NCBI GenBank assembly: GCA_963971285.1
Contig: OZ020253.1
Location: 4,154,001-4,218,000 of the forward strand
Direction: 5' to 3'
Source: Astropecten irregularis
Taxonomy: Eukaryota > Echinodermata > Asteroidea > Paxillosida > Astropectinidae
DNA length: 64,000 nucleotides
Numbering within the stretch: the stretch's first letter is position 1; each line of letters starts with the position of its first letter. This document shows positions 27,827 to 47,992 of this stretch, in pieces. The position numbers and the translations under genes were made by a program. The notes beneath the pieces are model-generated. The model saw only the letters and a list, made by a program, of their open reading frames with translations. It made no database searches and was not told the origin of the DNA.

Positions 27827-27832
27827 TTTATT
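27827..27832 (-). terminator. Poly(A) signal of GNAT-PARP gene (candidate)
   Basis: AATAAA on the minus strand, about 157 bases past the stop codon. It is the only canonical hexamer I noticed close downstream. Confidence 0.45.
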
Positions 27833-27988: not shown

Positions 27989-28111
27989 TCATTCTAGTTT
28001 GTATTCTATGAGATACAAAGGAAGTGCTTGGCAAGGATCAAAGATGACGTATTCCTGACATCCACTTATCATTCCATCACCTCCGCTAAGCAAGGATAAT
28101 CTGCCAGGAGT
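27989..28111 (-). CDS. GNAT-PARP gene exon 14, terminal
   Basis: It encodes residues 661-700 and the TGA stop. CQEYVIFDPCQALPLYLIEY is the C-terminal PARP strand pair; Glu680 occupies the catalytic glutamate position (E-Y-V-I-Y in canonical members), so the transferase glutamate is kept although the triad histidine is not. Confidence 0.9.
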   Translation of the reverse strand, partial: TPGRLSLLSGGDGMISGCQEYVIFDPCQALPLYLIEYKLE

Positions 28112-31100
28112 CTGTCAAAAACAACCCAAAATACAAGTAATAAACTGCTGCAAACTGTGACTGTGACAAATTTGCTAAGCATGATATTTCTGTCTTCATA
28201 AAAACAGGATTAACAACCAAATTTCAATGTGTTGTGTGTCACTTGTGATTGTTCTTTGGCTGTTGTTCTAAGATCAAAACCATAACCATTCTTTATGTTT
28301 TATAAGTAAAATTAAGCTGGGTTTACGTTATTTTCTCGTGACTCAAATTTTCACGTTTATTATTTCATGTACATGTTTGATCAGACAAAGTGTGAGTGCT
28401 GTTCTGTGACCTTTACCATTCATATTTATATACCTTTATTGGAGGTTAGTTTTGAGAAAGACAATTTGTGCTAAGCAATTTTCTGTGCTTAGCAATTCCA
28501 TGAAATTGGCCCCTGGTTGGCAGAGCAAGACTGGTTTACCATATTTACAGGCCTTACTTCTGTTAATAATGATAATAAATGAATACTTGTATAGCGCTAT
28601 ATCTAATTACAAACTACTCAAAGCGCTTATTATCATTATCCCTGGTCATCTGTTACATTCCTGAAACCATCTCAACTCCCTGGGAAGTATAAAGCCACCC
28701 CAGCTGCCCGCAAAGCACACTGGAGCTAATCAAACCACAAAGCCATCTCTACCCTCACAGGTACCCATTTACACATAGGTGAAGAGGAGCAATCCTTTTC
28801 CAAGGACGCAAGCACCACTAGCCCATGGCTGGATTCGAACCCACAATCTGTAGATTGACCACAAGACCTTGAGTACGACACGCCAGACCACTAGGCCAAG
28901 GTACCCCACATAAACAACTGTAATGATTGGCGATGATGGCCATACTTTTGGAAATCATCATGATATAAAGTTGAAGCAAACGTCTTGACTTACCACGATT
29001 GTGTCATATCCCTCCGGGGGAATAGTTCTGGTGTTATCAGTCTTTACGATGGAATCAGTCTTACCCAGACCAACATCGGCAAGAATGATCTTACCAAGCT
29101 GCCAATATACAACACAAGACAACAGAAACATTTATTTAAATGCCATGCAAGAATCGGGTGGGGACCGGTGACAAACAATATATGTTACATGGAATTTCAG
29201 GTGGTAACCGGTATTCGCTTAGCAAACCTATTCGTTCTGTCCTAAGCGGACTTGTATACTTAGTATGAATATTCATAGATCATTTAAAAGTAAACAAAGA
29301 AAAGTTGACGAGCGGGATTCGAACCAGCGATCTCCAGAATACTGTACCGCTGGTTCGAATCCCGCTCCAGTAAACTTTTCTTTGTTCACTTTTCAATGAT
29401 TTAAAATTCAGTCAGTTTCCCTTGTAGTTATTTGATAAAATACTAAAGATGTCAGTGTGAGTACATAAGGAAGCTACGAAATGTTGACACAGGGTCAACT
29501 GAGGTAGCCTTGAACAGGCTGCTGTGGTGGGATTAGAACCCGCAACCATCTCTAGTGTAGACGTATTGGTTTATACATACAGCTAGGCCTACTTGATGTA
29601 TGATATCCGTTCGAAGGTCACCTGATGCTGCTGTGGTGGGATATGAACCCGCAACCATCTCTAGTGTAGACGCATTGATAAATACATATATCTACTTGAT
29701 GTATGATGTACGTTCAAAGGTCAACTGAGGTAGCACAGGCTTCTGTGGTGGGATTAGAACCCGCAACCATCTCTAGTGTAGACGCATTGATAAATACATG
29801 TAGCTAGGCCTACTTGATGTATGATGTACGTTCAAAGGTCAACTGAGGCTGCTGTGGTGGGATTAGAACCCGCAACCATCTCTATTGTAGACGCATTGAT
29901 AAATACATGTAGCTACTTGATGTATGATGTATGTTCACACGTCAACTGAGGTAGCCTTGAACAGGCTACTGTGGTGGGATATGAACCCGCAACAATCTCT
30001 AGCGTAGACGCATTGATAAATACATGCAGCTACTTGATGTATGATGTACGTTCAAACGTCAACTGAGGTAGCACAGGCTGCTGTGGTGGGATTAGAACCC
30101 GCAACCATCTCTAGTGTAAACGCTTTGATAAATACATGTAGCTGTTGCAACAAATCTAAAAATTTGACAAAACTATATCATAAACGCCCTCTATCATCCA
30201 ATCCCTACTTTTGGTACCGAATTTGCAAATTTGATAAGTAGATTCGTTGCCAGTCCCCAAATTGTCAATGTTAAGTATGAAAACTATGGCCAGCAGCTTC
30301 AGCGGCAGTGAGAAGTTAAGTCCAATGCTGCATGCAATTCGTATCGTACCGTTGCCACCAAACCCTACAGTTTGACTGGGAACCAGTCTATTAAAGATGG
30401 AACTAGCTGAATGAACGTGAACGCAATGGTAACTTGTTCTTACATAGCCTCGCTATCCACCTTCAATGATGTTTTTTGCCACAAATCTGACAAACAACAA
30501 CCAAATAAACCGATACACTGGAAATACTGCCTTTTTAACGTGACCACTAACATCTCTGAACGCAAAATTGGATTTGAAAATCCGTCAACAAAACTGTGAT
30601 TCCTAGTTTTGTCGTACCGGATTTGTAAATCCAAGGATTCAAAGATTTGTTGCAACATTGATACTTGGTGTATGATGTACTTACTGCAGAGAAGTGAGCA
30701 GCTTTTGATGCATGCTGGCTGAAGTATAACCCAACACCAAACTCCCCATGATTGAAATCTGCAATGAACATCAGGTACCAACAGATAGAATTTAAAGATA
30801 TAATACATGATTGGTAAAGGACACAGAACAACACTCACACTTTAGTGATGTTATTTGTGGACTTTGGAGGGCACAGGACGCAATATACATACCAGAAACT
30901 GTAGCTTTAGCTTTATACAGTTTTTTTTTTTTTTAACTTGGTTTAAGTCCTAGAAATGTGCTATTGACAAAATCCACGGTGTTGAATTTTGAAACGTGAA
31001 CAAAGAAAAATTTACTGGAGCGGGATTTGAACCAGCAACCTCCAGAATACTGTACTAGCACTCTTACCAGCTGAGCTATCCATGTTGGTGGTGTCCTTTT

Positions 31101-34100
31101 AATAAACATAGATAATTGACTATTAGGGACACCACCAACATAGGGCTGGATAGATCAGTTGGTAAGAGCGCCGGTACGGTATTCTGGAGGTTGCTGGTTC
31201 GATAGAGGATATTATCTTACCTTGTTCACTGAAGCCATTGGATAATATCTTAGTGATTCTCTCGGGATGTTGTAAGGTGCCACACAGGTACATCTTAGTG
31301 CGGATGCTGGGATCTCGTAGATGACTGCATCTTGTGTTGAACATCTCAGTGGCAGAGGCAGAACAGTTGGCCTGAAATCAAAACCAATGAGTGGACAACA
31401 CATATCAATCCATCAATCAGTGGGAGCATGCGCCGCGGCAGCGCGTTGCCACATCTACCTTCGAGCGGTACTCCTTCAGTCTTCTCATAGCCATCCCCCA
31501 GGCAGCCACGCGACCCATCCCAATCCCATCAAAATAACGATCCATCTGACGCAACCACGTGTCGTGTGGACGCCCTACCGGGCGAGTCCTACCAGTAGGT
31601 TCTCTCATAGAGAGAATTCGTCTGGCAGGATCGCTCCCAGGGAATCTAGCCACATGACCATACAGTTGGATATGGCGCTCATGTATCATATATGCAGGTA
31701 ATAGGTTTCATCTGACTCTCCCTGAGTAACCTCTCGTTAGACACAAGGTCTGACCAGCATGTAACACATAACAGTTGGATAACTAACTAAACTAACTGGA
31801 GAACTTTATAGATGCATTATCTGCACTGCTGCTTGAATTGAGGAAAAACCTTCCAAATTGACCGGTCTTGAGCTGCCACTTCTGCTTCTTCAACTGGGCA
31901 CCCAGTGTCCTGGAGCCTTTCTCAAAGCTTGACTCAGGCTCCGGCTTCATGTCTGTCGACCGGTGGCCGATGATGAGACAGTGCGGCCAAGCCTAAAGAC
32001 CCTGGACAGGCATTCATCTGCCGTCACTGCAGCCGAGTCTGCCGTACCAGTATTTGTCTTGTTTCATGTAGGGACTGAGTTTCAATCTGGGTTGGAAAAT
32101 CTCAACCCTGCTCCACAGTAGGGTTGGGATTGGAAAGAATTCCACTGATGACCATCATTTGTGCACAACTCTATGCCACCAACAAAGGGCGTTTTGAGCA
32201 AAATGGCTGCTGCTGTTGGAAGTGTACAATTTTTAGGAAAAAAACCCTGTAAAAACTCACTTTTCAGACATGCTACCCCAGTTTTACACACCTGAGATTG
32301 AAGTGCATCATAATTTGTATCCAATAAGTTAACTCTTGGAGGATGTAATCTTTGTTGGTAATGGTCATCAGTGGAATTCTTTCCTTGAGATCAACCCGGG
32401 TTGAAGGCAACCTCAGGGTTGACGCTGGGTTGAACATTTTCCAGTGTGAATTGATGTCGATTTTCAACCCTGCATCAACCCAGAGATTTGTCTAGTATGA
32501 AAATCCGTTGAGATGTTTAATAGTGCAAGAGTTCAAACATACCTTAATTGTTTTGGAGATGACACACATCCCAGCCATAACTGAGTCATCCATGCTCTGT
32601 TTGAATTCCTCTGCAATCTTCCAATTTATGAGGCCATCAGACGGAGACGAGTCTGTGTAGAAAGCATCGATATCAAGGGAAACAAACTTAGTTATAGGTC
32701 ATATGATGAGATGTAATGGTTTGCATGCTGGAGTGACATTGAGAGAAGGTTTGTGGTAACATTGCATATGGAATCTCTTTGAAATCTCAATATTATAAAG
32801 GACTATAAATAAATAAATAAATATAACTTATAGACCGATCCGAGCGCACGACATACCATCCACCATTACTGCGGTGTCCCACGCCCGCCTTTTGTGTGGC
32901 AACAAAAGAATTTACACTCCGCCACCCTGGGGACGTACACCCTGCAGTATAGAGTGCGGCGGATTGTAACTTGTTGCCACACAAAAGGCGGGCGGGGACA
33001 CTGCAGTAATGGCGGATGGTATATCGTGCCGTCGGATCGGACTAAATATTAATCCGAACAACAAATGTTTGAATGGTGCCCTCTTTTAATAACAAAAATA
33101 AACTGCGGTGGTGTTTTTCGGTATACATATGACATCAACTCCGGCTCAGTACGTGCCGCACAACTTATTCTTGAAAGGAATCTACAGCACCATCGACATC
33201 CCTGGGTACTGGCTTCCCACTACCACGTGACTTTGATCGCCCTTTTTCCTTTTTTTCTATAACCATCACGAGAAATAACTCTTTCCCTTTTATAATACAG
33301 TATTCTTAAATGAAATGAAAGGACTATTAACTGAAATGTAACAGATCTGTTCATCTCAGCCAGTTTAAATTCCTTCCTCTTTTTGTTGCAGTTAGTATTA
33401 AAGTAAAAAGGTAAAACACTCAACATTTCACCCTACAGCGCAACTTCGATAAGATTAAGAGAAAAAAATTAGAATATTTTACCTGTTTCTGTCGTTCCAA
33501 GTGTCATAATTTTTTGCTGTAAATCTCTGATTAGTTTGTCAGTCTCTTCATCGTCAGAACTGTCGTCATCTGTAAGAGGACGACAACCTGGTTAGATCAG
33601 TTGGCTTGAGGGGAAAATAACTGGACTGGAACCCGAGACCCCTGGAATACCATATGAGGCCTCCCTATAGTCAACTGTCTTTGGTTGGGGTGCCAGTCAG
33701 AAGCCATATAACCCATTAACTGCCATACCAGTGCTCTACCATCTGAGCTATCAAGCCCTATGATGGGGCCTCCCTATAGTCAACAATCTTTGCTCAGGGT
33801 GGCAGTCAGAAGCCATATAACCCATTAACTGCCATACCAGTGCTCTACCATCTGATATCCAGTCCTATGATGGGGCCTCCCTAATGTCAACTACATTTGC
33901 TCAGGGTGCCAGTCAGAAGTCATATAACCCATTAACTGCCATACCAGTGCTCTACCATCTGAGCTATCCAGTCCTATGATAGGGCCTCCCTATAGTCAAC
34001 TATATCTTTGCTCAGGGTGCCAGTCAGAAGCCATATAACCCATTAACTGCCATACCAGTGCCCTACAATCTGAGCTATCCAGCCCTATGATGGGGCCTCC

Positions 34101-37100
34101 CTATAGTCAACTATCTTTGCTCAGGGTGCCAGTCAGAAGCCATATAACCCATGAACTGCCATACCAGCACTGTACCATCTGAGCTATCCAGCCCTATGAT
34201 GGGCCTCCCTATAGTCAACTATCTTTGCTCAGGGTGCCAGTCAGAAGCCATATAACCCATTAACTGCCATACCAGCACTGTACCATCAGAGCTATCCAGC
34301 CGTATGATGGGCCTCCCAATAGTCAACTATCTTTGCTCAGGGTGCCAGTCAGAAGCCATTATAACCCATTAACTGCCATACCAGTGCCCTACCATCTGAG
34401 CTATCCAGCCGTATGATGGGCCTCCCAATAGTCAACTATCTTTGCTCAGGGTGCCAGTCAGAAGCCATTATAACCCATGAACTGCCACACCAGCACTCTA
34501 CCATCTGAGCTATCCAGCCCTATGATGGGGACTCTCTATAGTCAACTATCTTTGCTCAGGGTGCCAGTCAGAAGCCATACATATAAACCATGACCCGCCA
34601 TACCAGCACTCAACCAACAGAGCTATCCAGCCCTATGATGGGGCCTCCCTATAGTCAAATATCTTTGCTCAGGGTGCCAGTCAGAAGCCATATAACCCAT
34701 CAACTACCATACCAGCACTCTACCAGCTATCCTGTCCTATGATGGGGCCTCCCCATAGTCAACTATCCTTGCTCAGGGTGCCAGTCAGAAGCCATATAAC
34801 CCATGAACTGCCATACCAGCACTCTACCATCTGAGCTATCCTGTCCTATGATGGGGCCTCCCTATAGTCAACTATCTTTGCTCAGGGTGCCAGTCAGAAG
34901 CCATATAACCCATCAACTACCATACCAGCACTCTACCATCTGAGCTATCCTGTCCTAAGATAGGGCCTCCCTATAGTCAACTATCTTTGCTCAGGGTGCC
35001 AGTCAGAAGCCATATAACCCATGAACTGCCATACCAGCACTGTACCATCTGAGCTATCCAGCCCTATGATGGGCCTCCCTATAGTCAACTATCTTTGCTC
35101 AGGGTGCCAGTCAGAAGCCATATAACCCATTAACTGCCATACCAGTGCCCTACCATCTGAGCTATCCAGCCGCATGATGGGCCTCCCAATAGTCAACTAT
35201 CTTTGCTCAGGGTGCCAGTCAGAAGCCATTATAACCCATTAACTGTCATACCAGCACTCTACCATCCGAGCTATCGAGCCCTATGATGGGGCCTCCCTAT
35301 AGTCAACAATCTTTGCTCAGGGTGGCAGTCAGAAGCCATATAACCCATTAACTGCCATACCAGTGCTCTACCATCTGATATCCAGTCCTATGATGGGGCC
35401 TCCCTAATGTCAACTACATTTGCTCAGGGTGCCAGTCAGAAGTCATATAACCCATTAACTGCCATACCAGTGCTCTACCATCTGAGCTATCCAGTCCTAT
35501 GATAGGGCCTCCCTATAGTCAACTATCTTTGCTCAGGGTGCCAGTCAGAAGCCATATAACCCATTAACTGCCATACCAGTGCCCTACAATCTGAGCTATC
35601 CAGCCCTATGATGGGGCCTCCCTATAGTCAACTATCTTTGCTCAGGGTGCCAGTCAGAAGCCATATAACCCATGAACTGCCATACCAGCACTGTACCATC
35701 TGAGCTATCCAGCCCTATGATGGGCCTCCCTATAGTCAACTATCTTTGCTCAGGGTGCCAGTCAGAAGCCATATAACCCATTAACTGCCATACCAGTGCC
35801 CTACCATCTGAGCTATCCAGCCGTATGATGGGCCTCCCAATAGTCAACTATCTTTGCTCAGGGTGCCAGTCAGAAGCCATTATAACCCATTAACTGCCAT
35901 ACCAGTGCCCTACCATCTGAGCTATCCAGCCGTATGATGGGCCTCCCAATAGTCAACTATCTTTGCTCAGGGTGCCAGTCAGAAGCCATTATAACCCATG
36001 AACTGCCACACCAGCACTCTACCATCTGAGCTATCCAGCCCTATGATGGGGACTCTCTATAGTCAACTATCTTTGCTCAGGGTGCCAGTCAGAAGCCATA
36101 CATATAAACCATGACCCGCCATACCAGCACTCAACCAACAGAGCTATCCAGCCCTATGATGGGGCCTCCCTATAGTCAACTATCTTTGCTCAGGGTGCCA
36201 GTCAGAAGCCATATAACCCATCAACTACCATACCAGCACTCTACCATCTGAGCTATCCTGTCCTATGATGGGGCCTCCCCATAGTCAACTATCCTTGCTC
36301 AGGGTGCCAGTCAGAAGCCATATAACCCATGAACTGCCATACCAGCACTCTACCATCTGAGCTATCCTGTCCTATGATGGGGCCTCCCTATAGTCAACTA
36401 TCTTTGCTCAGGGTGCCAGTCAGAAGCCATATAACCCATCAACTACCATACCAGCACTCTACCATCTGAGCTATCCTGTCCTATGATGGGGCCTCCCCAT
36501 AGTCAACTATCCTTGCTCAGGGTGCCAGTCAGAAGCCATATATCCCAGTGCTCTACCATCATATCCTAGTTGGAATGATTCTTACCTAGATTAATGCCGT
36601 TGGACGATCTAACTCTTGAGCCCAGAGCGACATCAATCTTCAGGTCTGCCAACTGCTGCTGTAGAAAATCTTTCTCTGGATACAAAGGAAAATCACACCA
36701 ACACAAAGATCCAAGTTAGTGGAGGCATCCCATGTTAGAGCACGAGTGGACTTTTCAGTAGACCCTCTTCATCCAGATCAGATTTTTCTCTTAAGAAAAC
36801 TACTTTAAAAATCCTGTTTGAAATCAATCAATCAATCAATCAGTGGGAGCATGCGCCGTGGCAGCGCGTTGCTGCATCTACCTTTGAGCGGTACTCCTGC
36901 GGTCTTCTTATGGCCATCCCAAAGGCAGCCACGCAACCCATCCCCATCCCAGCAAAATAACAATCCATCGGACGCAACCACGTGTTATGTGGATGCCCTA
37001 CGCAGCGAGTCCTACCAGTAGGTTCTCTCAATTAGAGAGAATCCGCCCGGTAAGATCACTCGCAGGAAATCTAGCCACATGACCGTACAAAGCGTTTAAA

Positions 37101-40100
37101 GCTTGACAGATCATTTTCATCCCTCAACTCGTCTGGCAAAGAATTCCAGAGATGCGGTGCAAAGCTGGAGTAAGCCCTGTCGCCATAGGTTGCCAGACGA
37201 GTCTTCGAAACAGACAGTATATGAGAAGATGACGATGACGCCGAAACGTTGCTACCAGCAACACGACATCCCGTGACATTGATCACCTTCTTTCCTTAAC
37301 TGAAAAATGAAGAGGTAGGCATAACTGAAAAAGGACTCACCCATGTGAAACTTATCAGCACCTAGCTTCTCCAACTCATGAGTGAGCGATTGAATGAGAT
37401 TCTGTTGTGACGTGACGAGAGCTCTGAGTGATATGACTTCATGTTTGAGCTTCATGGCACATGCCATCTGGGCCTGGTGGGCTTCTCGAGTCTTGATGGA
37501 CCACTTCTGAAGCTCTAACTCCATCAACTTCAGGTCTAGACCGGCATCAGTGTCCATCAGAATTGTCTGACCTAGGATGAATAAACAAGCAATCATTCAA
37601 GCGTCTTTGACCACGTTTACACTCAATCCAGCAAGGAGATTCAATTACTTTTTGGGGGATGCACGTCAGTCAGTCCCCGTGTGTGGTGAGAAAGTGGAAT
37701 TGGTCGATAGGTTCACATATCTCGGCAGTGATACATTTCTCTGCAAGCTGTTATCATGAAGTCAACAAGAGGATTGGTAGGGCTTGTGGAGTGATGGACT
37801 CACTGGACCAGACTGTATGACGTTCGCCTACATCTACGGTACGCAAGAGGACAAAGATTCGGGTCTTCAGGTCCCTGGTCTTGCCTGTCTTACTCTACGG
37901 TTGTGAGACAAGGACCTTGACTGGGGGCCTGGGGAGGCGACTCAATGTCTTCGGTACTGGGTCTCTGAGGAGGATCCTTGGGTACCGCTGGTCGGACCAT
38001 GTGTCTAACTAGAGGTTACTCAGGGTGAGTCAGATGAGACCTATTACCTGCATAATACGTGAGCGCCAGATGCGACTGTATGGGTCATGTGGCTAGATTC
38101 CCAGCGAGTGATCCTGCCAGGCGGATTCTATCTTTGGTAGGACTTGCCCGGTAGGGCGTCCACATAACAAATGGTTGCGTCAGATGGATCTTTATTTTGC
38201 TGATGTGGGGATGGGTAGCGTGGCTGCCTAGGGGATGGCTATCACCTTTGACGGATTGATACGTGTAAATGAGGTAAGTAAGAACTGAATGGGATTGACA
38301 AATCTAGAATCTTGGGACGTTACGGTGGTTTATTATTGAATAATAGTATGAGAGAACTACCTGAGAATGGTGGTAGATAGCACATGAGGGTACAGTTGGT
38401 CCAGTTATCGGCAAGGTCAGAAAACTTGCTGTTCAGTACGATATCATCATCAAAACCATGGCGACCGAAGAAATCCAGAGCGGAGTGATCGGCATATACC
38501 ACTAGTGCATCATAGGCTCCTACTACAGATACATCCTTCAAAGTCTGTAAATCACAACAAATACAATCAATGGAAGACATTTGTCGATAGAGGGCAGCAA
38601 ACTGCTGGTCTCCTGAAAACTACAGCAGTTGTACAAAAACTCTCCAAAAGACACAGGAAAATACTGTGAACATTAAATTCAGGCCATTTACATACCGTTA
38701 AAATGTGTCCACCTGAAATGGTGTATACATCCAGAAATTAGTAAAACAACGACCGAAAATTTTTTGGATCTTTTAAAAGATCAAAAAATAAAAGAGAAAA
38801 GACTTAAAGGTAGTATCATACTTTGGTAAGAGACCAAAACAGTAATGTTCACAGATTTACGTATAACTTTCAGGGTATGGAGATGGTGCTAGTCGAAACC
38901 TACCGTTAAAATTTTTCCGCTTGAAATGGTGTATTTATCCAGAAATTAGTAAAACAACGACCGGAAATCTTTTTGATCTTTTAAAAGATCAAAAATAAAA
39001 TAGGAAAGACTTAAGAAATACTGTGGCCGTTTTTCACTGTTTTCTCAAAAATGTGGGTGCCGTATGGGACTGAAATTTACACAGATGACTGTTATTGTAT
39101 CTTCCTTGATATTTTTGTCCATGAATCTGTATTTCTTTGACAAAAACCAAAGAATGATAGTACCTTTAAGCTTTTGGTAAGGTTATATGATTAGCAACTT
39201 AGTAGAAAGCAAGAATTCTTACCTGAATCAGGTATCTGCCGATGCCCAGCTTACGGTATCTTCTTCTGACAGCTAACAGGTCAATTTGGGTATTCTTTTC
39301 ACCAGGACGGCTAAAAATAACCAAACAAATAATGGTTGGAACGGCAATGATACAACTACTGGAGATGCGCAATGATATGGTTGGCATGGCAATCATACAA
39401 CTACTCCAACTTTCACGCTTGGTATTTTGGTTGATGAGCAGTTCGTAGCAGTTTTAAATTAAACTTGCATTGTTAATATTTTTGGTCACCATACTTTGGC
39501 ATGTAGTTTCATAGATATATAAAAAAACTAGATGACGCACCTGTGCACAAACCAATGGGAGCTATATCCGTCATGCAGGACGTGGCCATTTTAGGGGGGA
39601 AAAAATTAACCTAAACATTCAACCACTTATTATAATGATCGCGCAAGCCGTGCGCGGTCTGCGGTGCTGGCCGTTATGCGTTACGCGATGCACCAGAAAC
39701 ATGATGGAACGCCGCAGCTATATTTGGTGGCTTAGATTGTTTGTCGGTAATTCCATTTTAATTTGCCAATTTCATCATTTTTTTTGCCATTTTGTAATTT
39801 CGGTCGCCAATTCCATCATTCAGTTTGTCATTCTGTAATTCTGTTCGCAAATTTCATCATTCAATTTGGCAAATTGAATGATGGAATTACCAAAGCAAAC
39901 AATCTAAAGAAGAATAGCTACGGCATTCCATTAAAAAGGGATGTAAAATTCCCTTTACAAATGGCGCCGCCGTTAAAGAAGAGTCCACGAACAGGCAATG
40001 CGTCATCTACTTTTTTTTATATATCTATGTGTAGTTTGCTGTAGATTTGATTCCCCTTGTCGTTGTACTTACATGGTTGATTTCTCCCATGTAGCGCATG

Positions 40101-43100
40101 CAATGAGTCTAGACTCAATGCCTATATGAGAGGATGGATCTTTGCCTTGAGACAAGGCTAGCTGTCGCTGTTTTCTCCTCTCACGGACCAACGACAGGAA
40201 AGCATCCTGGCCTACTGTGTAGTCTTCCTCTTCATCGTCGCTGCAATAAACAAAACAGCTTCGTTAATCCAGTCAAATGGTCAAATAAAGAATTTTAAAA
40301 GTCTTTAAAGCTGGCTTTAATTTAACTGGGATGATGGTTCAATTTCAAATGAGTAAGTCTTACCAGGAATATTAATTATTTTTCTTCAGGGAGATAGTAA
40401 TATGAAAATTAGGCTTGCCCTTCACTGACATAAGTGAGCACTGCATGCTTGTTGAGTGCACATAAAAAAAAATCATGCACTGGCTCAGATGGGATTCGAA
40501 CCCACTACCTCCTGCTTTCTAGTGCAGATGCCATACCGCTAGGCCAGCAAGCTAGCTGCGGTCAATTGGGCAAATCAAATCCAATGTCGCATAAATATCA
40601 AAGATTTTCGTTGGAAGAAATCAGTGTTGTAGTACTCGTACTCGGTACTCGCACTTGAGTACTACCTGAGTACCATTTTCAGAGTACTCGTACTTGTACT
40701 CGCACTCGAACGTCCAAATTCTCGCACTCGTCCTTTGGTACTTGTACTCGGGCTACAAAATACTTGGAACTCGACATCCAAAAATTGTACTGAAGCATCT
40801 ATGTACTCGTACTCGAAAAAGAGTACTCGATCAAAACAATTTGTTCAGTTAAAGTTTGTGGATTGAGCATTCTAACAACGAATCGAACGGGGCTTAAGAT
40901 AATTTGAGAGTCAAGTTTGGGCGAGATGTGACATTGCCTCTTGTCATAAACATACATGAGTGACCTTCATAGAATGCAAACAACCTACCTGTCCGATTCC
41001 TTCTCACTATCCGTGTCGCTGAAAACTTCGCCAAACAGCTTTTTCGTTTCTCCCTCCTCTCCACTTTCAGTGACTTTATTATCAGTCTCCTCTTCAGTGG
41101 GTACCTCCTCAGCCACGTTATCTTGCTCAGATCTGGTTGGTGCATGGTCAGGAGCTGGCGTTCCTTCTGTTTCAAGGTCAACTACAGTCAGGTCTGGCGT
41201 GGTACCGGCTGTAGTCTGTGATGCATTTGTGTCGCTGGACGTAAGTGTGTCATCTTCTCCTCGGATGCCAGCCTTTGCTGTTAGTTCACCTGCAACTTCT
41301 GCTTGTTCAAGGATTGAAAAACCAAACAATACGCAACGTCTGAATTTCAATCTTGAGGGGGTAAAGCTATGATAAAGGTACAATAATACCTTTAATACCA
41401 GCAACCGGTGGAGTGCTGTGGCCTAGTTGTCTGGTGTGTCAAACTCAAAGTTTTGTGGTCAATCTACAGATCGTGGGTTCAAAACCAGCCATGGGCTAGT
41501 GGTGCTTGCGTCCATGGGCAAGACGCTTTATCACATATTGCTTCTCTTCACCCAGGTGTAAATGGGTACCTGGGAGGGTAGAGATGGCTTTGTGGTTTGA
41601 TTAGCCTCTGTGCGCTTTAAAGTAGCCGGGGCTGTATACTCCCCAGGGAGTTGAGATGGCCCAATGACAAGGGACAATAGGCCTAATATGTGTGCCACGA
41701 GTGTCTTTGGACAGATGTGTGCGCGGAATAAATTCCAATTTATTATTCTTATTAATACATGATTGGTAATTGTCACAGAATAGCACTCACACTTTGTCTA
41801 ATCCAGCATGTACATAAAATGATAAACCTATGAAAATTTGAACTCAATTGGACATCTGAGTCACGAGAATAACGAAGACCTGACTCAATTTTCTTATAAA
41901 ACATGAAGTCATTGAAAAGTGAACAAAGAAAATTTGACTGGAGCGGGATTTGAACCGGCGACTAGACTTTCCTGATGGAGGTCGCTGGTTCAAATCCCTC
42001 TCAAGTCGATTTTTCTTTGTTCACTTTTCAATGACTTAAAATTCAGTCAGTTCCCCCTCGTGGTTATTTGATGATTATAAAAACATAAAGAATAGTTTTG
42101 ATCAATACCCTGAGATCAAAACTGTTTTCAGTCTTTGTTTGACAAATTTCTGGATAAATACACCATTTGAGGCGGAAATATTTGAACGGTATGTTGCTAC
42201 CACCACCATCTTCATACCCTGAAAGTTATACGTAAATCTGGGAACATTTCTGTTTGGGTGTGTTACCAATCCTGTACTGTACCTTCAATATCTCTGATGA
42301 GTAGAATTGTCTTAGCCCATTTGCCACACACTGTAAAATACAAGACTTCTGGAGTAATATCTGGCAGGCAGACATCGTACAATGCGATGACAGCATGAAG
42401 TAATTCTTGATTGGGGACCTGAGGTAAAATAAACAGGTGTGTAGTTTAGTTTAGGCTGACCGTATTGAAAATAGCGACCGCTGGGAGTTGTGAGATGAAC
42501 AAGGATTGAAAGGGCGCCACCACATGCTTACTTTTGTTCAGTTCTCTTTGTGCACTGTGTTATGTGCGTTACGTATGTTGCGATATATTTTATTGTAGTT
42601 TATGGCACCTATTCATACAAGGAAATAATTGTTAAAAAACCACTTTGCAAAAGTAGCCTAACTCACCTAAATACATTGGTCGTTTGATGTGAACTCTTTA
42701 CTACCTAGCAAGGTTAATTTGTGGAAAGAGGGCAGGGTTTTGAATTTTATGAAAAATACAGGACAAAGACAAAGACGGACATTTCACAGATGAAATGCTT
42801 AATAAAAAATAAATAAAGCAAAAACCAATAAACAAACATGAATCGTCTTTATTTAGTGAAATCTGTGCTAAATATCAAATTGTTGGAAAGTGGGGATATG
42901 CACAACATGCGCAACAGAACATATTCATGTTCGTTCCGGAATCCGGCATGTAGTATTTGACTGACTGAGTAAGATATTAAATTAGGCCTAATCTTAAAGG
43001 AAAATCCCATTTTCCTCTCATGATTTAGCCTAGGCCCTATTGAATATTGATCTGAATATTCTGAATTCACAAAAATTGGGTCAACATCATTTAATTAAGC

Positions 43101-43666
43101 GAACAACCTGAGCGTAGGGGCTGAGGTTTTCCTTTTAGGCTAGGGGCCTAGTAGTTGCGATGATCGTAACCCTAAGGTCCTGTCCCCATGTCAGACCTAG
43201 GGTTACGATCATCGCAACTAGGGGCCTAGGGGCCTACTCTTTTTTTTTGCAGGTCGACCTCTTTCGTACAAATGACAAAAACAGGGGGTCAATTGCAGAA
43301 TACCCCCCTGCCCTCACTCGAAATCCCTGTGCATGAGCGGTCAAGGAGGACATTTGTACACAGGTTCAATGAGGGAGAGTTGGGGGTTCAATCCCCATGG
43401 CCATGACCATGCAGGTCACTTACCCCCGGAATCAAACTGACGGACTTGAATTTGGCGCTTTGAAATAAACGTCGAAACTCAAGCACAACTGGAGTACAAG
43501 TCACTGCCACCTCCTCAGACTGAAACCATCCAACTCTCTTACTCTTTGAGTCTATCAAACCCGAATCAACACCATTTTCTGCTTTCTTAGCACTGGATTT
43601 TTCACCCTTTCGAGCAAAACTGACAGGAGACAGACGCGTTGCTAAGTTGACACAGGAGGCCGCCAT
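27989..43666 (-). CDS. GNAT acetyltransferase / PARP-like fusion protein, 14 exons, 700 aa
   Basis: Exons (high to low): 43666-43424, 42418-42283, 41301-40989, 40240-40073, 39310-39223, 38544-38361, 37571-37341, 36675-36586, 33569-33483, 32652-32543, 31371-31221, 30758-30685, 29098-28994, 28111-27989. All introns are GT-AG and every phase closes, giving 700 residues. Residues about 275-375 form a GNAT fold: motif A with RKLGIG at 306-311 (the acetyl-CoA pyrophosphate loop) and motif B YADHSALDFFGRHGF at 333-347. Residues 378-485 look coiled-coil, 485-500 are acidic. Residues about 551-700 match a PARP catalytic domain: YLCGT at 578-582, GVGLYFSQHASKAAHF at 608-623, KIILADVGLGKT at 628-639, and EYVIF at 680-684. 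The H-Y-E triad reads Cys580-Tyr612-Glu680. Predicted roles are acetyl-CoA-dependent acetylation and NAD-dependent ADP-ribosylation, but target and activity are unknown. I do not recognise a named vertebrate orthologue. Confidence 0.85.
28170..28514 (+). mobile_element. M4 MITE split by an M2 fragment
   Basis: M4 sequence (GGATTAACAACCAAATTTC) runs to 28267, M2 from 28268 to about 28441, then M4 resumes and ends CCATGAAATTGGCCCC. It lies in intron 13 of the GNAT-PARP gene. Confidence 0.6.
28560..28910 (-). mobile_element. tRNA-derived SINE S3
   Basis: Reverse copy: box B as GGATTCGAACCCAC, box A as CCACTAGGCCA, tail toward GCGCTATATCTAATTAC. Plus-strand relative at 41404. Confidence 0.65.
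28994..29098 (-). CDS. GNAT-PARP gene exon 13 (PARP core)
   Basis: It encodes residues 626-660: KIILADVGLGKT followed by TIPPEGYDTIV, matching the PARP strand (M-L-x-x-V-x-L-G) and the loop P-x-G-Y-D-S-V. The acceptor is TATTGGCAG and the donor GTAAGT. Confidence 0.9.
29293..29440. mobile_element. Fold-back SINE S1
   Basis: Two S1 right halves face each other: GAGCGGGATTCGAACCAGCG is followed after 23 bases by CGCTGGTTCGAATCCCGCTC, with flanking AAACAAAGAAAAG also mirrored. It lies in intron 12 of the GNAT-PARP gene. Confidence 0.75.
29505..30150 (+). repeat. Tandem repeat, about 110 bp, 6 copies
   Basis: Units contain GTGGTGGGATTAGAACCCGC (a tRNA box-B-like core), CATCTCTAGTGTAGACGC and CTTGATGTATGATGTACG; a tandemised SINE piece in intron 12. 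Confidence 0.85.
30685..30758 (-). CDS. GNAT-PARP gene exon 12 (PARP Tyr motif)
   Basis: It encodes residues 601-625. FGVGLYFSQHASKAAHFS is the PARP GxGxYF...SK motif; Tyr612 fits the triad tyrosine. The second, nicotinamide-stacking tyrosine is Phe623 here. The donor is GTAAGT. Confidence 0.9.
31000..31205. mobile_element. Head-to-head pair of S1 SINEs
   Basis: A reverse S1 (GAGCGGGATTTGAACC to GAGCTATCCATG) and a forward S1 (GGGCTGGATAGATCAG to GGTTGCTGGTTCGA) form a long hairpin in intron 11. The forward copy stops about 15 bp from the exon 11 donor. Confidence 0.75.
31221..31371 (-). CDS. GNAT-PARP gene exon 11 (PARP NAD-site strand)
   Basis: It encodes residues 551-601. MYLCGTLQHPERITKILSNG aligns with the PARP motif (W/F/L)-H-G-T...I...GF; the catalytic His position is Cys580 (codon TGT). 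A truncated SINE ends about 15 bp beyond its splice donor. Confidence 0.9.
31404..31742 (-). mobile_element. RTE-like non-LTR retrotransposon 3' end
   Basis: The minus strand encodes the usual C-terminal reverse-transcriptase tail (LYGHVARFPGSDPARRIL, then GRPHDTWLRQMDR). The 3' tail is a degenerate ATTG repeat. In intron 10. Confidence 0.8.
32132..32384 (-). mobile_element. hAT-type MITE M3
   Basis: Both ends GGAAAGAATTCCACTGATGA and complement are intact; flanks TTGGGATT and TTGAGATC are a decayed 8-bp duplication. In intron 10. Confidence 0.75.
32543..32652 (-). CDS. GNAT-PARP gene exon 10
   Basis: It encodes residues 514-550 (GLINWKIAEEFKQSMDDSVM), leading into the PARP catalytic region. 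The acceptor is TTTCTACACAG and the donor GTATGT; it ends in phase 0. Confidence 0.85.
32831..33044. mobile_element. Fold-back element, about 90-bp arms
   Basis: GACCGATCCGAGCGCACGAC through CCGCCTTTTGTGTGGCAACA is mirrored with few mismatches ending CGGATCGGAC. GC-rich compared with its surroundings; in intron 9. Confidence 0.75.
33483..33569 (-). CDS. GNAT-PARP gene exon 9 (acidic linker)
   Basis: It encodes residues 485-514: DDDSSDDEETDKL followed by a short helix. The DDSSDDEE run is a likely casein-kinase-2-type phosphorylation stretch, an inference from composition. The acceptor is CCTCTTACAG and the donor GTAAAA. Confidence 0.85.
33650..36562 (-). repeat. SINE-derived satellite, about 109 bp x 27
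   Basis: Each unit (minus strand) holds GGGCTGGATAGCTCAGATGG, a tRNA 5' half with box A, followed by GGTTATATGGCTTCTGACTG and a TAGTTGACTATAGGGAGGC link. The same order occurs in S1 SINEs with their flanking sequence (compare 56470-56550). Distinctive variants recur about 1.52 kb apart (33781/35304 and 34576/36095), so the array contains a large internal duplication. It fills intron 8 of the GNAT-PARP gene. Confidence 0.9.
36586..36675 (-). CDS. GNAT-PARP gene exon 8 (end of coiled coil)
   Basis: It encodes residues 455-485 (KDFLQQQLADLKIDVALGSR), continuing the helix. The acceptor TTCCTTTGTATCCAG keeps the frame; the later CTACAG does not. The following intron holds the large SINE-derived satellite. 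Confidence 0.85.
36824..37085 (-). mobile_element. RTE-like retrotransposon 3' end
   Basis: Same tail peptide as at 31404 (GRTRCVGHPHNTWLRPMD) and an ATCA repeat tail at the same point. In intron 7. Confidence 0.8.
37086..37290 (-). mobile_element. Non-LTR retrotransposon C-terminal fragment
   Basis: The minus strand reads TRLATYGDRAYSSFAPHLWN then SLPDELRDENDLSSFKR, the typical end of CR1/L2-like reverse transcriptases in animals. It directly abuts the RTE fragment. Confidence 0.75.
37341..37571 (-). CDS. GNAT-PARP gene exon 7 (coiled coil)
   Basis: It encodes residues 378-455, a long charged helix (LKLMELELQKWSIKTREAHQ and onward) with heptad-like leucine spacing, probably a dimerising or scaffolding coiled coil between the two enzymatic domains. 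The frame requires the acceptor CCTAG rather than the nearby GTCAG. Confidence 0.85.
37640..38262 (+). pseudogene. Decayed RTE-like reverse transcriptase tail
   Basis: Plus-strand remnants in several frames: VDRFTYLGS, VLPVLLYGCETRTLT, LRRILGYRWSDHVSN and IRERQMRLYG. Frameshifts and stops throughout; dead copy in intron 6. Confidence 0.75.
38361..38544 (-). CDS. GNAT-PARP gene exon 6 (GNAT motif B)
   Basis: It encodes residues 317-378. YDALVVYADHSALDFFGRHG is GNAT motif B, as in GCN5-like enzymes (AD..A..FF...GF), followed by a conserved-looking NWTNCTLMCYLPPF strand that closes the fold. The donor is GTAGTT. Confidence 0.9.
38690..38803 (+). mobile_element. M1 MITE fragment
   Basis: Middle part of M1 up to GAGAAAAGAC, where a second M1 begins at TTAA. 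Confidence 0.6.
38804..39169 (+). mobile_element. M1 MITE inside another M1
   Basis: Complete copy with central GATCTTTTAAAAGATC. It starts at the TTAA of the GACTTAAG word of the fragment to its left, though the host's right half is absent. In intron 5. Confidence 0.75.
39223..39310 (-). CDS. GNAT-PARP gene exon 5 (GNAT motif A)
   Basis: It encodes residues 287-316, TQIDLLAVRRRYRKLGIG, the classic GNAT motif A: a beta strand followed by R/Q-x-x-G-x-G/A that binds the acetyl-CoA pyrophosphate. The acceptor is TTATTTTTAG and the donor GTAAGA. Confidence 0.9.
39510..40030. mobile_element. MITE with CATAGATATATAAAAAAA ends
   Basis: Inverted ends extend about 30 bp into GTAGATGACGCA; GTAGTTT is duplicated on both sides (39503-39509, 40031-40037). 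Inside are repeated AATTCCATCATT-type words. In intron 4. Confidence 0.75.
40073..40240 (-). CDS. GNAT-PARP gene exon 4 (start of GNAT domain)
   Basis: It encodes residues 231-287. An acidic start (SDDEEEDYTVGQDAFL) leads into a basic helix and then IESRLIACATWEKST, which fits the central beta strand before GNAT motif A. The acceptor is TTTATTGCAG and the donor GTAAGT. Confidence 0.85.
40415..40580 (-). mobile_element. tRNA-derived SINE S2
   Basis: Box B as GGGATTCGAACCCAC and box A as CCGCTAGGCCA on the minus strand, tail GTGCACTCAACAAGC. Relative at 51950. In intron 3. Confidence 0.7.
40624..40830 (+). repeat. GTACTC-type degenerate microsatellite
   Basis: Repeated ACTCGTACTCG and ACTTGTACTCG words, starting with GTGTTGTAGTACTCG, which resembles a hAT terminus, but no opposite end was found. 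Confidence 0.6.
40989..41301 (-). CDS. GNAT-PARP gene exon 3 (acidic, low complexity)
   Basis: It encodes residues 127-231, rich in Thr, Ser, Glu and Asp and probably disordered, ending in the acidic run EVFSDTDSEKESD. The acceptor is a tandem NAGNAG (AAGCAG); both choices keep the frame and differ by one residue. The donor is GACAG then GTAGGT. Confidence 0.8.
41404..41750 (+). mobile_element. tRNA-derived SINE S3
   Basis: Box A GTGGCCTAGTTGTCTGG, box B GGGTTCAAAACC, then a 250-bp body ending TTATTATTCTTATTAA. In intron 2. Confidence 0.7.
41750..42288 (-). mobile_element. M2 MITE split by a fold-back SINE
   Basis: Reverse M2 from ACATGATTGGTAA to CCAATCCTGTACTGTACC. An S1 fold-back element (41908-42082) interrupts it, with TATAAAACAT duplicated around the insertion. 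The M2 left end overlaps the exon 2 donor. Confidence 0.8.
41908..42082. mobile_element. Fold-back SINE S1
   Basis: Mirrored arms CATTGAAAAGTGAACAAAGA and TCTTTGTTCACTTTTCAATG enclose two opposed box-B cores; the S1 tail CAGTTCCCCCTCGTGG follows on the right. Confidence 0.75.
42283..42418 (-). CDS. GNAT-PARP gene exon 2
   Basis: It encodes residues 82-127 with a mixed alpha/beta look (ALYDVCLPDITPEVLYF). The acceptor is TTTTACCTCAG. The donor, GAAG then GTACAGTACAGG, is the terminal sequence of an M2 MITE, so the splice site seems to be supplied by the transposon. The phase (one base left over) matches exon 3. Confidence 0.8.
43142..43231. repeat. Long hairpin in intron 1
   Basis: TAGTTGCGATGATCGTAACC and its complement pair as part of a 28- to 37-bp stem with a loop of about 14 bases; one-base bulges only. 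Confidence 0.8.
43424..43666 (-). CDS. GNAT-PARP gene exon 1
   Basis: It encodes residues 1-81 and ends in phase 0 at a GTAAGT donor. The start chosen is the MAAS methionine in an AAAATGGCGGCC context, typical of housekeeping first exons. Two in-frame methionines lie just upstream (43682 and 43699), so the protein could begin up to 11 residues earlier. The segment is basic, with no membrane segment or signal peptide, suggesting a cytoplasmic or nuclear protein. Confidence 0.75.
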
Positions 43667-47518: not shown

Positions 47519-47992
47519 ATGAAACCAGTTTTGATTTTGATCGTATCTCTCTTGTTTACGAGTGTTCAGGCCGGGCCGTGCAAGCCAGGGCAGACACAGT
47601 TCGGTGATTCTTGCTACGCATTATTACTGAATGGACCGATGACATGGTTTGATGGTAATGAAACCTGCTCTGATATGGGCGGTGGCTTGGTGGTTCCTGA
47701 CTCCCCTAATGAACGTGAGTTCATCTGGAAGATGTTCAATGCTACGGTGCAAGGGTACAGTCTTTGGACCGGCTGTAATGATATAGAGGATGAAGGCTTG
47801 TATGTTGCAGCGGGTAAGGGAGACACCATGTGCAGTTACCTACCCTGGGTACCGGGGGAGCCAGTTTTGGATCAACAGCAAGAGGCTGATTGCTTGATGA
47901 TGTGGAGCATGCATGAAGGTCTTCTGAATGATGTACCGTGTGGCCAACTTCACTATACGTCATGTGCGAATCTACAGCCATCCCATCCATGA
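47519..47992 (+). CDS. Secreted C-type lectin domain protein, intronless
   Basis: A 157-residue frame. Residues 1-18 are a signal peptide (MKPVLILIVSLLFTSVQA). A C-type lectin fold follows: CKPGQTQFGDSCY, WFDGNETCSDMGGGLVVP, then a WTGCND strand, and LPWVPGEPV with CGQLHYTSC holding the last disulfide cysteine (residue 149). The calcium/sugar motif reads EPV rather than EPN or QPD, and the WND motif reads LND, so sugar binding may be altered. Two N-glycosylation sites, NET and NAT, are visible. The frame ends soon after the last cysteine, while a different frame continues with a cysteine-rich domain (next entry). A GATATAAGG lies about 40 bases before the start. Echinoderms and other marine invertebrates have many such secreted lectins in coelomic immunity, which is only an analogy here. 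Confidence 0.8.
   Translation: MKPVLILIVSLLFTSVQAGPCKPGQTQFGDSCYALLLNGPMTWFDGNETCSDMGGGLVVPDSPNEREFIWKMFNATVQGYSLWTGCNDIEDEGLYVAAGKGDTMCSYLPWVPGEPVLDQQQEADCLMMWSMHEGLLNDVPCGQLHYTSCANLQPSHP

Follow-up and report, generated by a model that had tools for sequence, protein, structure and literature searches.

A predicted protein of Astropecten irregularis joining a GCN5-like acetyltransferase domain to a PARP-type domain with a probable cysteine at the triad histidine

The window, i.e., the whole stretch of 64,000 nucleotides of Astropecten irregularis DNA that was analyzed (contig OZ020253.1, positions 4,154,001 to 4,218,000), contains on its minus strand, from 43666 to 27989, a predicted gene of 14 exons with 2103 nt of coding sequence, which encodes 700 amino acids and has one terminal stop. 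Exon 1 (43424..43666, aa 1-81) opens with the start ATG and ends at the donor GTAAGT. Exon 2 (42283..42418, aa 82-126) would encode the N-terminal part of a GNAT acetyltransferase domain, exon 3 (40989..41301) an acidic insertion in that domain, exon 4 (40073..40240) the end of this insertion and the next GNAT strand (aa 274-282), exon 5 (39223..39310) GNAT motif A and exon 6 (38361..38544) motif B through the end of the domain (aa 327-375). A linker is formed by exon 7 (37341..37571), which is proline-free, exon 8 (36586..36675) and the acidic exon 9 (33483..33569), while exon 10 (32543..32652) perhaps contains, as judged by eye only, the N-terminal part of the ADP-ribosyltransferase (ART) region. 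The PARP motifs follow in exon 11 (31221..31371, motif I), exon 12 (30685..30758, motif II), exon 13 (28994..29098, core strand with the GYD motif) and exon 14 (27989..28111, motif III and the stop codon). Approximately 157 bases past the stop lies an AATAAA on the minus strand (27827..27832), a possible poly(A) signal, although the window is rich in hexamers of this kind (129 vs. 97 expected).

The model was constructed by listing open frames, scoring donors and acceptors with generic animal matrices and joining the exons. All introns are GT-AG, which is partly so by construction, as sites were picked among GT and AG. With exon 13 outside the scored set, the site used is the best or only one of its region for 10 of the 12 donors and 8 of the 12 acceptors. 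The exon 2 donor and the exon 3 acceptor are weak, below the listing threshold of the splice scoring. For the acceptor, any of four in-phase positions (41301, 41298, 41295 and 41289) would do, which puts the protein at 696-700 aa. The stretch 30140-30480 was rejected as exon 13, the PARP strand with GYD being located at 29098-28994. In terms of codon usage, the reading frame outscores the other five frames in 11 of the 14 exons, ties in one and is beaten in two, in a weak test that was trained on 4341 nt of PARP exons from the same genome and penalizes stop-containing frames. The model draws its support from the closing phases at 13 of 13 introns, from scored sites that mostly have no better competitor in their region, and from the two domain matches of the product. 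The rebuilt gene thus has the 14 exons, closing phases and 700 residues that had been claimed in an earlier note on this DNA.

Several other elements lie in or near the gene. Intron 8 contains a tandem array with a 109-base unit (33654-36547; 26.6 copies, 91% matches), the reverse complement of which includes the stretch TAGCTCAGATGGTAGAG, and a second 109-base tandem array of 5.6 copies is present in intron 12 (29518-30137), with GGTTCTAATCC in its reverse complement. These stretches are presumed to be like a tRNA A-box and B-box, respectively; ARAGORN found no tRNA in the intron 8 array. The two arrays look as if two parts of a tRNA-derived element had expanded in introns of one gene. In intron 6, stretches on the plus strand (37611-38154) resemble reverse-transcriptase remnants by eye, and the two pieces tried gave no Pfam match. 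Also on the plus strand, an open frame at 47519-47989 encodes a C-type lectin domain (38.5 bits vs. a cut-off of 22.6) and begins, as judged by eye, like a signal sequence.

The presence of GNAT and PARP-like folds in one gene model had been claimed before, together with a proposal to search profiles. In Pfam, the spliced protein scores above the cut-off for both and neither domain fails: PARP (PF00644) reaches 37.1 bits vs. 26.7 (E 3e-9, aa 587-698), Acetyltransf_1 27.4 bits vs. 20.7 (E 4.3e-6, aa 271-347) and Acetyltransf_10 26.1 bits vs. 23.6 (E 8.9e-6), while Acetyltransf_7, with 23.5 bits, stays under its cut-off of 27. Compared to a rough partial join with a wrong exon in the PARP piece, the scores rose for PARP (from 30.2) and Acetyltransf_1 (from 21.3), and fell slightly for Acetyltransf_10 and Acetyltransf_7 (from 27.2 and 24.6). 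Neither the bromodomain and PCAF N-terminal domain of KAT2, among matches at E up to 1, nor the accessory domains of PARP3, the tankyrases and PARP4 were found in the Pfam scan of the spliced protein.

Among solved structures, the top match of the GNAT part is KAT2A (E 0.0014). Once aa 126-272 (147 residues) are omitted from the query, aa 82 to approximately 375 align with KAT2B, covering chain residues 16-162 of the 168 in structure 1cm0; the E-value is 6.5e-5 for this insert-free query from exon 1 vs. 0.0028 for a shorter query, a gain that comes partly from the added exon 1-2 sequence. As this alignment starts at aa 82, the GNAT domain begins in exon 2 and is split by the acidic insertion, which has 35 D/E in 113 residues over aa 128-240 and, by analogy with the GCN5 fold, would lie between strands 2 and 3. 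Judged from these alignments, the GNAT half is of the GCN5/PCAF kind, sharing with KAT2A and KAT2B a near-whole catalytic domain alignment, the CoA loop and motif B. In general, the acetyl-CoA loop of GNATs has the pattern R/Q-x-x-G-x-G/A, and the loop present here is R306-K-L-G309-I-G311. The protein differs from KAT2A and KAT2B by the insertion of about 147 residues, by having, on the Pfam scan, neither a bromodomain nor the N-terminal domain of PCAF, and by the catalytic residues. In the KAT2 structure alignments, Gln295 stands opposite the catalytic Glu of TEIVF, the stretch here being TQIDL, so that the motif A strand lacks the Glu that marks GCN5/PCAF members, and the Val two residues on is replaced by Asp297. 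The Glu replaced by Gln295 is presumably E173 of yeast Gcn5. The E173Q mutant of this enzyme is described as catalytically dead in the available part of one paper (PMC4398931). In an excerpt of another, the base of GCN5 is Glu80, beside Ile81 and Val82 (PMC3344931), which is equated here with the Glu of TEIVF. Asp297 is expected to point in the same direction from the strand as Gln295 and could stand in as base. The GCN5-like character of the GNAT half, its large acidic insertion and the Gln at the catalytic Glu are, on the sequence, additions to the earlier note.

A search of the own genome (475.7 Mb, 168 contigs, with the window on C17) with the GNAT part returned just its own exons 5 and 6 and no close second copy; such a search detects close copies, and KAT2 itself escaped it. 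Viral contigs gave 22 pattern matches, none of which was confirmed as a relative of the GNAT part. The mitochondrial COX1 contains the conserved STNHKDIG when AAA is read as Asn, AGA as Ser and ATA as Ile, which translation tables 9 and 14 produced and tables 2, 5 and 13 did not; table 9 applies to echinoderms and flatworms, and the COX1 looks like that of an echinoderm. Elsewhere in the assembly, contig C131, perhaps bacterial, has a COX1 match (32162-33484) that stays open over 552 aa, unlike the copy on C168 with its 10 TGA. A further COX1 fragment on C25 (9951047-9952018), with seven in-frame TGA, is likely mitochondrial DNA inserted in the nucleus.

The PARP part resembles PARP3 (E 0.0024), the tankyrases and PARP4 among solved structures, with weak E-values ranging from 0.0024 to 0.012 (0.0038 for a longer query). 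Tyr612 and Glu680, in exons 12 and 14, and the motifs around them align well with solved PARPs, with GYD and QALPxYLIEY among the motifs retained. From the triad that marks PF00644 members, the Tyr of motif II and the Glu of motif III are hence present in these two residues. The position of the stacking tyrosine, 11 residues after Tyr612, is occupied by Phe623; in the same genome, 8 of 8 PARPs, in rows cut at that residue, have Tyr, seven at this spacing and one shifted two residues downstream. The H-Y-E PARPs (PARP3, tankyrase and PARP4) are, with weak E-values, the best solved relatives and have the motif III Glu in common with the protein, whereas Cys for His and Phe for the stacking Tyr set it apart. 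By motif reading, the same genome has exons resembling the PARP1, PARP3, PARP4, tankyrase, PARP14, PARP16 and TIPARP types, and the GNAT-PARP gene is therefore an addition to them. Among exons of this genome named by motif, the motif III Glu is present in 5 of 5 read for tankyrase/PARP1-4-like genes and in 0 of 4 of TIPARP/PARP14-like ones.

The motif I His of the triad is probably missing, and the residue at its position is the least certain alignment of the three. Cys580 in exon 11 is placed there by motif score: it is part of KMYLCGT, a stretch that corresponds in PARPs to a hydrophobic strand followed by HG[ST]. The score was derived from nine PARPs of the same genome, those with the motif readable in one exon. 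Without the His column, Cys580 scores 4.0 (Leu579 -1.8, His585 -8.1), which exceeds every other position of the domain and ranks third among the 692 of the whole protein; among the positions scanned, only Leu508, too far upstream, beats it. With the His column, it scores 1.6 and is fourth behind Leu508, His604 and Asn595. Gapped alignments waver. MAFFT puts the triad His opposite Leu579, one residue off Cys580, in all nine rows having His, and the nine optimal pairwise alignments choose His585 three times, Asn595 twice, Cys580 once and no residue in the remaining three, a scatter that arises because the loop before the next helix exceeds its usual length by about two residues. In ungapped 12-residue scoring, Cys580 is preferred over His585 in six of nine cases. 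The Pfam match starts at 587, so the triad His position falls outside it. Quite probably, Cys580 is the residue at the triad His position, and C-Y-E the best reading of the triad; the residues Cys580-Tyr612-Glu680 and Phe623 that had been claimed earlier are reproduced. His585 would be an improbable triad His: the preceding TLQ is not a hydrophobic strand, a Pro takes the place of the Gly and the motif score is far lower than that of Cys580. In PARPs, the Gly after the motif I His holds nicotinamide through its backbone (Gly contacts, PMC7955679, in part). Were Leu579 the aligned residue, His would be lost all the same.

ART domains without the triad His are known. According to the available part of the same paper, the motif I His binds the ribose of adenosine as well as the amide of nicotinamide (PMC7955679). 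PARP9 and PARP13, which lack it, are described as inactive in an excerpt of another, which nevertheless connects PARP9, together with DTX3L, to the ADP-ribosylation of ubiquitin (PMC9189837). A precedent is land-plant PARP3 (clade 1D), which has Cys at the triad His (PMC2964712, in part). In the same excerpt, moss PARP3 keeps the Glu and lacks the Val that replaces Tyr elsewhere in the clade (PMC2964712), and by implication is C-Y-E. For Arabidopsis PARP3 (C-V-E), the accessible text reports an inactive protein that does not bind NAD, in which restoration to H-Y-E brings back NAD binding and still no activity, while AtPARP1 mutated to C-V-E still binds NAD and loses activity (PMC6701155). The inactivity of AtPARP3 must therefore have other causes too, and these mutants speak to C-V-E and not to C-Y-E itself, because the Tyr was changed along with the His. 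Although land-plant PARP3 and the protein share the Cys, AtPARP3 carries Val in place of Tyr along with BRCT, WGR and PRD domains, and the available sources do not mention a GNAT for land-plant PARP3. PARP9, PARP13 and TASOR have ART folds described, in the excerpts at hand, as inactive, and PARP9 and PARP13 lack the His like the gene here; unlike it, with Glu680, PARP9 (Q-Y-T) and PARP13 (Y-Y-V) have lost the Glu too, and all three have other domain partners.

From the genomic sequence, we infer one transcript and the fold and function of a GNAT-PARP protein. The preferred reading, with a probability of roughly one half, is a fusion of a GCN5-type GNAT and an ART domain that acts as an adaptor or reader and in which the PARP half has little or no enzymatic activity. 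The chain would start with a GCN5-type GNAT interrupted by the acidic insertion, continue with a linker and end in a PARP-type ART domain. The ART half would have lost the NAD-holding His and kept Tyr and Glu, so that ADP-ribose transfer would be weak or nil and the domain would serve as a binding module. The GNAT half, with Gln at the GCN5 base and an intact acetyl-CoA loop, would bind acyl-CoA, and acetylation would either be lost or use another base such as Asp297. The protein may thus act on chromatin or on ADP-ribosylated partners, as is thought for PARP9, PARP13 and TASOR, none of them a standard PARP enzyme. The partly available results on PARP9, PARP13, AtPARP3 and AtPARP1 C-V-E suggest that the transferase is weak or dead and that its pocket perhaps still binds, and the scaffold or reader role leads because Gln occupies the GNAT base besides the change in the ART triad. 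Out of the three fates considered in the earlier note (a reader, a new acceptor chemistry or inactivity), an inactive or weak domain is hence favored over new chemistry, as far as the plant PARP3 precedent is documented in the sources available. Against a dead enzyme speak the retention of Glu680, unlike in PARP13, the NAD binding of AtPARP1 C-V-E and the link of PARP9 with DTX3L to ubiquitin modification, the uncertain assignment of Cys580 and the fact that GNATs vary in their base, so that Gln295 is no proof of a dead enzyme.

Some of the same features would suit a working two-headed enzyme, in which a C-Y-E mono-ADP-ribosyltransferase and an active GNAT share partners. Tyr612, the aromatic Phe623, Glu680, the GYD and QALPxYLIEY motifs and the RxxGxG loop are all kept, and AtPARP1 C-V-E, in the available text, retains NAD binding. 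However, loss of the His accompanies inactivity in AtPARP3, PARP9 and PARP13 in the sources at hand, and the GCN5 Glu is replaced by Gln, which leaves this possibility a doubtful second to the adaptor.

A somewhat less likely alternative is that two adjacent genes lie on the same strand, in which case the GNAT gene would end near 38320 and the PARP gene would begin upstream of exon 7. Homology supports the joins 4/5 and 5/6 in the GNAT half and 11/12, 12/13 and 13/14 in the PARP half, while joins 6/7 to 10/11 are supported by splice sites, phase and colinearity, with no homology across them. Read-through past exon 6 hits a stop after 13 codons, with an AATAAA just before this intron 6 stop (38329-38334) and another after it (38191-38196), so a GNAT gene ending within intron 6 is possible; moreover, exon 7 contains an ATG. 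In codon usage, none of the four linker exons exceeds the 95% quantile of open segments, for a null with lengths of 90 and 231 only and an exon mask fitted to one strand. On the other hand, the exon 7 acceptor is good (5.6) and has a pyrimidine tract, like that of an internal exon, the phases close over the 13 introns, introns 6-10 measure 0.7-3.0 kb and the in-frame codon score beats those of the five other frames in all four linker exons, a weak indication given the penalty on stop-containing frames. The GNAT and PARP exons quite probably form a single gene. The coiled coil that had been proposed to join the two folds was not borne out: its periodicity is matched by 392 of 2000 shuffles and goes no further than composition.

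Improbable as well is one polypeptide that senses or writes with two metabolites, acetyl-CoA and NAD, and in which Cys would take over from His in NAD handling, bringing new ADP-ribosylation chemistry or a dual-cofactor chromatin sensor peculiar to the animal lineage. A decaying gene or pseudogene, which the replacement of key residues in both domains might suggest, is very improbable, as the reading frame stays open in all 14 exons and both domains retain conserved cores.

The claim that no characterized protein has this architecture agrees with the literature covered: no GNAT-PARP protein is named or described among the literature matches listed or in the available text of two PARP surveys, and no paper in the open-license literature searched contains both 'GNAT domain' and 'PARP domain'. 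The word acetyltransferase is absent from the main text of the eukaryote PARP survey (PMC2964712), and in the accessible part of a domain re-annotation of the 17 human PARPs it occurs once, for a tag. For the Cys at the triad His, land-plant PARP3 provides a precedent. Unannotated orthologues may exist in animal protein databases.

To our knowledge, acetylation and ADP-ribosylation have separate writers in the animals described. Both are metabolite-linked marks, and a natural fusion would connect them in one molecule. The paired catalytic changes would test whether both kinds of pseudo-enzyme can persist together purely for binding, and C-Y-E would be a natural test of the need for the PARP His while Tyr and Glu remain.
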